In this document: piece after piece, positions 4,335 through 16,666 of the stretch
How positions within the stretch are numbered: position 1 is the first letter of the stretch
Layout of the letters: every line of letters begins with the position of its first letter
Source of the DNA: Rhizobium sp. Q54
Lineage (GTDB): Bacteria > Pseudomonadota > Alphaproteobacteria > ATCC43930 > CGMCC-115725
Length of the DNA stretch: 35,396 nt
Direction: 5' to 3'
Assembly: GCA_945861155.1 (NCBI GenBank)
Contig: CAMATN010000043.1
Location: forward strand, 1-35,396
Made by a program: the position numbers and the translations under genes
The notes under the pieces: generated by a model
What the model was told of the DNA's origin: nothing
The model's database searches: none
What the model saw: the letters and a program-made list of their open reading frames with translations, nothing else

Positions 4335-4431
4335 CCCCCACCCCACCCTACCCTCCCCCGCTTGCGGGGGAGGGTTTTTCGGCGCCCGCGTGACCCCCTC
4401 CCCCGCAAGCGGGGGAGGGTTGGGGTGGGGG
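4335..4431. repeat. Intergenic double-hairpin repeat, family A, copy 1
   Basis: Two 24-nt palindromes, each CCCTCCCCCGC-x2-GCGGGGGAGGG in form, occupy 4351-4374 (centre TT) and 4396-4419 (centre AA). They are inverted to each other with a 21-nt spacer. Outer C-rich and G-rich flanks (4335-4350 and 4420-4431) are also complementary. A second copy of the same element lies at 15239-15334. It sits between the metallophosphoesterase and MlrC genes and has no T-tract. Confidence 0.85.
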
Positions 4432-15238: not shown

Positions 15239-15334
15239 CCCCCACCCCACCCCTCCCCCGCTTGCGGGGGAGGGAGTTCGGCGGAGCCCCGGACACCCCC
15301 TCCCCCGCAAGCGGGGGAGGGGTGGGGTGGGGGG
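15239..15334. repeat. Intergenic double-hairpin repeat, family A, copy 2
   Basis: It has the same plan as 4335-4431. The palindromes CCCTCCCCCGC-TT-GCGGGGGAGGG at 15251-15274 and its AA-centred inverse at 15298-15321 are separated by 23 nt. The outer CCCCCACCCCAC and GTGGGGTGGGGG flanks pair. It fills the gap between the convergent DUF1674 gene and the selenoprotein gene, where it could also stop transcription, but there is no T-tract. Confidence 0.85.
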
Positions 15335-15354: not shown

Positions 15355-16569
15355 TTAGCCGGCGAGACGCAGAGCCGGGACCAGGAACATGCCGGCGATC
15401 TGCTTGGCGCGCTCGTCCTCACCGGCCACCAGCCGGCGCCGCAATTCGTGGATCGCCGCGCCGGTCGCGGTCTCGTTCCACAGCCAGTCGCCGAGCTGCC
15501 GGCTTGACGGACTGCCGCCGCCCGCGAGCGCCGCTTCTAAGGCGTAGGCCTTAAGGTCGTCGATCGCGAACCGCAGGCACAGGATCGGCGACAGGTCGGG
15601 CACCGGGCTCGGCGGCGCGTTGCCGGTCGAGGTGCCGCGCAGCCAGGCGGCGACGTATTCGCCGCAGGCGGCCGGCGCCAGAGTGCTGAGGCCGACCGTG
15701 CTGCGGCCGCGCGCGGTGCACGACGCGGCGTAGGCGGACGCCAGTTCCCACAACTCGGCCTGGACGGCGTCGGCAAGCGCTTCCGCCTCTCCATCGCGGT
15801 ATGCGCCCGCCTCGATCGGCGGTCGCCAGCCCGGATCGGGGGTCTCGCGCGGGTCGTCCGCCGGGAAATCGGTGAGCAGCACCGGCCCGGCGCCCGATTC
15901 CAGCAGGCCCAGCGCGGCGCGGATCACCCCGGTCTGAAACGCCGGGTCGCTCGGCGGCCCGAACGGTCGGCCTAGCTCGAACGGCACCCACAGCGCGCGC
16001 GGCGGCCGGGTGCGCTCGGCTTGCGGGCGCACCAGCGCGATCGCGACGGTCGCGATGCCTTCTTCCTCGATCAAATGCCCGAGCGCGCTCACGGCGCGCG
16101 TGCAGAGCGGTCAAACCGGCGGAAGGATGACCCCGTCGACGCCGTCCCGGCGCAAATTTCCGGCGACCTCGCGCGCCGCGTTTTCCATCTCGGCCGGATC
16201 GGTGGCGCCCATGAACGAATAATGGTTCGCCGCGACCGAGCCGATCGCCCCCATGGCCACGAGTTCGTTGAGCCGGTCGAGCGGGAACACGACATTCCAG
16301 TCTTCCTGGAAACCGGTACGGTCGAAATTGATCGAGATGTGGCTGCACAAGAGTTCGTTGGCCGGGGTCGTCGCCGGAATGACCCGGTAATCCGCCTCGC
16401 GTCCGCGGAACGGCCGCTCGCCGCGCCGGACCAGCCCGGCCGATGACACGATCGCGATACGGCGGGCGGCGAGCGGCGGGCCCTCGACCCATGGCGTCGT
16501 CGTGAAATCCGGGCATTCGAGCGCGCCGTAGCGCTCGGCCTGGGCGGGCGGAAGTCGATCGAGCCGCAT
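15355..16569 (-). CDS. PrdB/GrdB-like selenoprotein (glycine/sarcosine/betaine/D-proline reductase selenoprotein B family) with in-frame UGA
   Basis: From ATG 16569 the frame reads MRLDRLPPAQAERYGALECP through SINFDRTGFQEDWNVVFPLD and GVDGVILPPV, then meets TGA at 16113-16111. It continues in the same frame with PLCTRAVSALGHLIEEEGIA and on to a TAG stop at 15357-15355. With the TGA read as selenocysteine the product has 404 residues and a redox motif U153-P-L-C156, the position of the catalytic Sec in PrdB and GrdB. VLLTDFPADDPRETPDPGW and RALWVPFELGRPFG lie in the C-terminal part. In clostridia these proteins are reductase subunits; in proteobacteria the role of homologues is unknown. A hairpin just after the TGA fits a bacterial SECIS. 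It stands alone, with no reductase partners, and is divergent from tRNA-Asp. Confidence 0.85.
16083..16113 (-). promoter_or_regulatory. Candidate bacterial SECIS hairpin behind the in-frame UGA
   Basis: On the minus strand the UGA (16113-16111) is followed by 11 bases and then by a perfect six-base-pair stem GCGCGC/GCGCGC (16099-16094 with 16088-16083) closed by the five-base loop CGUGA. Bacterial SECIS hairpins that bind SelB lie directly after the UGA, with the apical stem-loop about 11 nt away and a GU in the loop; this one matches both. Additional weak CCG/CGG pairing could extend the base. This is a structural prediction only. Confidence 0.55.
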
Positions 16570-16666
16570 GGCATCGTCTCCGGGTTGTTCGGCGACAACA
16601 TTCCACGCCGGTACGGGGGCGAGTCAATCAGCGACCCGTAGGAAAGTGAGCCGCACGGGGAGTTGC

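Follow-up and report, generated by a model that had tools for sequence, protein, structure and literature searches.

The window, the whole stretch of 35,396 nucleotides from Rhizobium sp. Q54 (contig CAMATN010000043.1) that was analysed, carries on its minus strand a single reading frame at 16569-15355, which encodes a protein of 404 residues when its lone in-frame TGA is read through. The frame opens with an ATG at 16569, with GGAGA, a likely ribosome-binding site, 7 nt upstream (16577-16581), and closes with a TAA at 15357-15355. The TGA (16113-16111) lies between an upstream open frame of 152 codons plus TGA (16569-16111) and a downstream one of 251 codons followed by the TAA (16110-15355), which are in phase and touch each other, and it creates the motif U153-P-L-C156, whose Cys156 is encoded at 16104-16102. 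ORF calling with table 11 yields two ORFs across 16569-15355. An earlier sequence-only reading had described two in-phase frames parted only by a TGA, a read-through protein of 404 residues with this motif, and a gene that standard calling would split, and all three descriptions agree with the coordinates, the translation and the ORF calls. By itself, an open frame of 250 codons is weak evidence, because the DNA after the TGA is 74% G+C and its other five frames hold only 2-5 stops each; what takes the read-through frame beyond chance is its conservation in homologues.

Searching 39 genomes of the same family-level group recovered 12 full-length genes in 9 genomes, the window gene included, and the other 11 share 61-74% identity with the window gene and contain exactly one TGA each. 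Together with two named MAG loci they form alignment A1, in which all 14 genes (window gene plus 13 homologues) have one TGA, in one column, and no other internal stop. None of the 13 aligned homologues ends naturally at the TGA, an ending that had been named beforehand as speaking against a selenoprotein. Pairwise among the 14 genes, differences at the first, second and third codon positions amount to 0.226/0.145/0.486 before the TGA and 0.267/0.231/0.498 after it, and since they fall mainly at the third position on both sides, the frame after the TGA is under protein-level selection as well.

Searches of the order (43 genomes) and the phylum (398 genomes; best 4 candidates per genome) had given rise to the idea that the long form is limited to one family-level group, which was overturned when a profile of the C-terminal domain (A6), with up to 10 candidates scored per genome, matched at least 33 of 385 genomes of Alphaproteobacteria, the own genome included. 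Of the 384 other alphaproteobacterial genomes in the sample, at least 32 thus carry the long form, in the Sec version in 29 and in the Cys version in 3, and the 35 loci from these 32 genomes have a TGA at the site in 32 cases and a Cys codon in three (L186, L188 and L189). In total, 46 long genes carry the TGA (window gene included) and 3 carry Cys, while in a shorter subfamily this column holds Sec in 12 genes and Cys in 20 (9 and 8, respectively, in its 17-gene alignment A2). The proposed check of homologues for Sec or Cys at position 153 therefore found both, and the in-frame UGA is kept in a family whose members carry either UGA or a Cys codon, as is characteristic of selenoproteins. A quick tree places the three long Cys genes inside the Sec genes, together with L163 and L166 (support 96), and this nesting suggests that they arose by Sec-to-Cys replacement.

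Several rules define these counts. Loci L010-L013, whose contigs match those of whole-genome loci in length, were taken as duplicates and counted once; the partial L016, an 82-residue fragment (G687:C14) and the fragments G005:C272, G006:C171 and G025:C96 were omitted; L177 contributed 45 nt at the TGA and was excluded from the tree; and the 32 later long Sec genes and 3 long Cys genes stand outside alignments A3 and A4 and were included in the site and hairpin tallies over all genes. The own genome also possesses a second long copy (contig C173, L036) with 66% identity, as well as a short PrdB-like paralogue (contig C72, L045; also L136) with an in-frame TGA and the same hairpin. L177 (G469:C4) combines the Sec TGA with an in-frame TAG 127 codons downstream, which reflects either decay or a sequencing error. 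Moreover, L150 (G006:C171) and L151 (G005:C272) retain the C-terminal domain in a degenerate, frame-broken state, apparently as extra copies that have decayed, and their presence in two related genomes indicates that such copies decay at times. Finally, L016, on a 3.2-kb contig of a MAG labelled Gemmatimonadetes, is 77% identical over residues 1-136 and becomes unrelated before the TGA site; the contig is likely misbinned or chimeric.

The mRNA is predicted to form a SECIS-like hairpin close behind the UGA (16099-16083), with stem GCGCGC/GCGCGC and loop CGUGA (16093-16089), whose upper stem pairs nt 15-20 with nt 26-31 in a numbering that starts at the T of TGA. In alignment A3, which has 25 Sec rows after two identical genes were merged, 24 of them distinct, 98.6% of the stem cells are paired against 74.4% after shuffling, 38 cells are changed on both stem sides against 14.9, and the covariation score is 0.664 against 0.236 for shuffles and at most 0.173 when the stem is slid; RNAalifold recovers the same stem in the Sec sequences. 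The same columns in the 18 distinct short Cys genes of A4 (out of the 20 short Cys genes) are paired at shuffle level (63.9% versus 63.8%). Two further measures in A3 give no excess over shuffles, namely pairs changed on both sides (4 of 6 versus 3.9) and further pair types (6 versus 6.8). Independent covariation events are few, because most changes stem from one split between the long and the short subfamily: own-group long genes have the stem GCGCGC/GCGCGC and most short ones CCAGAC/GUCUGG, with additional paired stem changes in L120 and L124.

Across all 81 genes, the loop reads CGUNN in 58 of 58 Sec genes of the two subfamilies, whereas GU occupies loop positions 2-3 in 1 of 23 Cys genes; all six stem pairs form in 38 of the Sec genes and in none of the Cys genes, one or two pairs being unformed in the other 20 Sec genes, and these counts are not independent events because the genes are related. 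All 58 Sec genes encode Val at +7 from Sec, through the codon with the loop GU, and a single one of the 23 Cys genes does so, which suggests that the RNA signal dictates an amino acid. Against synonymous recodings of the same peptide, the 14 genes of A1 have no more than a mild advantage in folding energy (z -0.6 to -2.4), and the short Sec genes L026 and L124 fold worse. An Rfam search over the hairpin gave no match. For the E. coli SECIS, a review gives an upper stem-loop of nt 15-31 that carries a bulged U17 and has G23 and U24 in its loop (PMC8659212). The present hairpin occupies the same position and likewise bears a G and a U in its apical loop, but its GU lies one base earlier and the bulged U17 is absent, position 17 being G or A and pairing with 29 throughout A3.

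The own genome (4.88 Mb, 226 contigs, 96.9% complete) encodes the machinery of selenocysteine incorporation that the sequence-only reading had proposed to look for. SelB scores 391.5 bits (cut-off 242.25), SelA 559.6 (267.9) and SelD 300.1 (125); selD, selA and selB are consecutive on contig C40, and a tRNA-Sec with anticodon tca lies on C23, so that selA, selB, selD and tRNA-Sec(UCA) are all present. Among own-group genomes with the long form, selA exceeds its cut-off in 8 of 9; the exception, G003 (77% complete), has the TGA form and a tRNA-Sec. Outside the group, 28 of the 29 genomes that carry the TGA long form have selA over its cut-off, as do none of the three with the Cys long form (one of them 83% complete) and 2 of 15 genomes without the long form, which served as a convenience control (Fisher p 3e-8 for 28/29 versus 2/15). 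L159 (G673) has the TGA form, the loop CGTGA and 5 of 6 stem pairs in a genome that is listed as 100% complete and in which selA was not found. In the short subfamily, selA is present in 7 of 8 own-group genomes with a short Cys gene, in 1 of 12 such genomes outside the group (G331), and over cut-off in 6 of the 9 genomes in the own group that have a short Sec gene, the other three being 74-79% complete; the choice between Sec and Cys does not track selA in this subfamily.

The N-terminal part of the protein is a PrdB/GrdB-like alpha/beta domain (residues 31-238; 16479-15856), which is delimited by the structural model and its fold matches and which contains matches to PF07355 (GRDB; residues 34-149, 36.5 bits against a gathering cut-off of 22) and to the best-scoring NCBIfam model, PrdB TIGR04483 (residues 32-224, E 3.2e-30). 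When two clostridial proteins annotated as PrdB are included in an alignment of 7 rows, the U153 column coincides with the PrdB Sec (U151 of L147), and Cys156, which is also invariant in A1, is invariant together with H77, D83, D90, F95-P96, G171, T174, R191 and others. Unlike PrdB, which is about 240 residues long and 31% identical, the present protein bears an extra helical domain of about 150 residues (residues 252-404; 15816-15358), which is delimited by the model, by the matches of profile A6 and by the alignment, and which belongs to the long form and is lacking in the short form and PrdB. The short form (about 315 aa) shares the core and the site, with Sec or Cys, has an N-terminal extension and is about 30% identical to the long form; in Roseomonas and Haematobacter it is annotated as 'glycine/sarcosine/betaine reductase selenoprotein B family protein'. 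With GrdB, GrdF and GrdH the protein shares PF07355 above the gathering score, but the GrdB models match it by their C-terminal part only.

In the whole-protein model (pLDDT 76.4), Sec153 stands directly ahead of a helix (154-169) of the alpha/beta domain, and further helices follow between 262 and 395; the C-terminal domain modelled alone (pLDDT 87.5) is all-helical. Foldseek searches of PDB with the whole model and with the C-terminal domain returned nothing at E <= 0.001. VIA-align 2 found Rossmann-like and periplasmic-binding-like matches for residues 31-238 (Z up to 8.4) and matches with Z up to 4.4 for the C-terminal domain, no family being named in either case. A PDB sequence search at E <= 1 gave no match for the long-form alignment A1 and two chance-level matches for the short-form alignment A2. 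The missing structural match of the C-terminal domain is not proof of a new fold.

Proteins of this kind have been seen in other settings. UxxC selenoproteins called 'PrdB' were reported, in the portions of the sources at hand, to be abundant in the Sargasso Sea and GOS metagenomes (42 and 235 sequences; PMC1088965, PMC2398784), in both cases under the name proline reductase, and those from GOS were assigned to pfam07355 and accompanied by 110 Cys homologues (PMC2398784). Their likeness to the present family lies in the UxxC motif and pfam07355, as these excerpts offer no full-length architecture, context or host for comparison. FarB, a GrdB-like selenoprotein of a fluoroacetate operon in Synergistota, for which Sec attack on the C-F bond was proposed (PMC10838667, as far as consulted), is likened to it here by description, both being GrdB-like and cleavage next to the carboxylate being proposed for FarB, which has a GrdE-like partner, FarE. 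Searches of the open-licence literature turned up no paper that treats the long form of the PrdB-like protein or its location in sel clusters, and by its sequence the long form appears to be a new variant of a known selenoprotein family.

In the window, the gene is flanked on one side by the nuo operon (on the other strand) and a tRNA-Asp, and on the other by one ORF with no Pfam match and then an RsmB-type methyltransferase gene, an arrangement kept in G023 (L133) and partly in G024 (L129); these neighbours look like housekeeping genes and are uninformative on function. The gene had been described as isolated from any partner, which is true of the window but does not hold elsewhere, since relatives lie in the sel cluster or beside TetR, GST or CoA-transferase genes. 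In 12 of the 29 other Sec genomes, the long gene and selA are on one contig within about 20 kb, and tRNA-Sec was found in all six of these 12 selA-linked loci that were scanned. Loci L190-L201 and L172 place the long gene in or beside a selA/selB/selC/selD cluster in many Alphaproteobacteria, and the SelD of L197 is fused to an N-terminal Pyr_redox_2 domain. The neighbours vary between clades. A BLAST survey of 49 long genes (46 Sec, 3 Cys) with 14 identified neighbour proteins, which gives lower bounds as many loci are 3-5 kb long, found SelD within 300 bp of at least 9 of them, TetR within 1.1 kb of at least 7 (two family groups), GST within 300 bp of at least 5, CoA-transferase III within 150 bp of at least 3 (one family group), OsmC within 1.2 kb of at least 2 and HAD hydrolase within 30 bp of at least 2. 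As for the short form, CoA-transferase III adjoins the gene at three of nine loci (assigned by Pfam at L143 and L140, and at L138 by 97% identity to L143), and an AMP-binding enzyme lies near it in 2 of 9 (L142, and L136, the own genome's copy, where it is encoded about 0.9 kb upstream).

We consider, with a probability of about 0.93, that 16569-15355 is an intact, genuine selenoprotein gene, a long alphaproteobacterial member of the PF07355 UxxC family, and on the comparative evidence its TGA is very probably read as selenocysteine. If the TGA were an ordinary stop, the locus would encode a 152-residue protein followed by an unrelated frame, or a pseudogene made by a nonsense mutation, as might be supposed from the two table 11 ORFs and from the degenerate C-terminal remnants in two related genomes; this is extremely improbable, as 46 long genes share the TGA and keep the frame open before and after it (L177 having its later TAG), three long genes replace it by Cys in genomes where selA was not found, the third-position bias persists beyond it, and the hairpin covaries. 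On the Sec/Cys exchange, the hairpin and this bias, the stop or pseudogene was rejected. It is also very unlikely, if slightly less so, that the gene product serves a genuine D-proline reductase as its PrdB subunit, or acts as the GrdB of a reductase for glycine, betaine or sarcosine. The sequence-only reading was right about PrdB/GrdB-like kinship, in that PF07355 scores above its cut-off and the UxxC aligns with that of PrdB, the best NCBIfam match, but identity with PrdB itself did not survive: the protein reaches 105.3 bits where the PrdB equivalog model requires 300, the GrdB, GrdF and GrdH models (TIGR01917, TIGR01918, NF040794 and NF040795) stay below their cut-offs (38 versus 602.2 bits for TIGR01917 and 48.7 versus 65.45 for TIGR01918), and its 404 residues include the additional domain. 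A search that recovers PrdA from a Terrisporobacter plasmid with 976 bits did not find it in the draft genomes G000, G023 and G031; no prd gene occurs among the scanned ORFs of the window, whereas one annotated PrdB copy adjoins prdA and prdC. A genome search for GrdA (PF04723) gave no match, and its control gave none either. On the model scores and the failure to find PrdA, true PrdB or GrdB was rejected, and judged by sequence the protein is not the D-proline reductase PrdB.

What the selenoprotein does is a more tentative matter. The characterised relatives PrdB and GrdB have amino acids as substrates, on which they work beside the carboxylate. By analogy, the likeliest activity of the long form, though a tentative one, would be to cleave a bond adjacent to a carbonyl reductively with the help of thiols. 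After UGA decoding as selenocysteine, which the conserved hairpin 15-31 nt downstream would direct, Sec153, ahead of its helix in the Rossmann-like domain, would serve as the nucleophile and Cys156 as the resolving thiol. The selenolate may attack the carbon next to the carbonyl and cleave a C-N, C-S or C-halogen bond, by analogy with PrdB, GrdB and the reaction proposed for FarB, after which a Se-S bond would form with Cys156 and be re-reduced by a cellular thiol system. No PrdA-type partner is evident, because PrdA was not found in three group genomes in a search whose positive control was found, and since no such pyruvoyl subunit was found, the C-terminal helical domain would be the likeliest source of a substrate pocket or oligomer contact, its role in substrate binding being a guess. 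The TetR, GST and CoA-transferase III neighbours of some relatives point to the inducible handling of a carboxylic acid, a CoA ester or an electrophile. The protein could instead be a general thiol/selenol oxidoreductase for stress defence, which reduces peroxides, disulfides or glutathione adducts and does not cleave C-X bonds; UxxC is a common redox motif, and the GST, OsmC and TetR genes near some of the 49 long genes would suit such a role. However, the modelled domain looks Rossmann-like, with no thioredoxin-like entry among the 50 matches listed, some loci have CoA-transferase III or AMP-binding neighbours that hint at acid or CoA substrates, and the relatives PrdB and GrdB are known for their action beside the carboxylate of amino acids, whose chemistry is summarised in PMC13188914 (as far as that text was available). 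We regard the stress-defence role as doubtful in its own right, and about as likely as C-X cleavage.

If C-X cleavage is the activity, a chemistry of amino-acid-fermenting anaerobes would also serve bacteria of another lifestyle, and Alphaproteobacteria would have a second reason, beside formate dehydrogenase, to retain selenocysteine. Mukai 2021 described fdoGHI-sel clusters in Alphaproteobacteria and regarded formate dehydrogenase as what Sec is primarily used for (PMC8124441). A second selenoprotein that is often found in the sel cluster would change this formate-dehydrogenase-centred picture, and it raises the question of which reaction justifies keeping selenocysteine. It is conceivable, though we hold it only tentatively, that selA, selB, selC, a flavoprotein-fused selD and the long selenoprotein form an alphaproteobacterial cassette that is transferred and kept together, and that the selenoprotein is a stand-alone reductase which works without a pyruvoyl partner and removes a group next to a carbonyl. 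Since standard gene calling splits or truncates the gene, this little-studied family is presumably easily missed, or misnamed as a proline or glycine reductase.

Finally, the window also contains four perfect palindromes of the form CCCTCCCCCGC(TT/AA)GCGGGGGAGGG, arranged as two close pairs at 4351-4419 and 15251-15321, of which 100 shuffles produced none. The second pair lies within 15239-15333 and forms a 39-nt, REP-like inverted repeat directly 3' of the stop of the selenoprotein gene.
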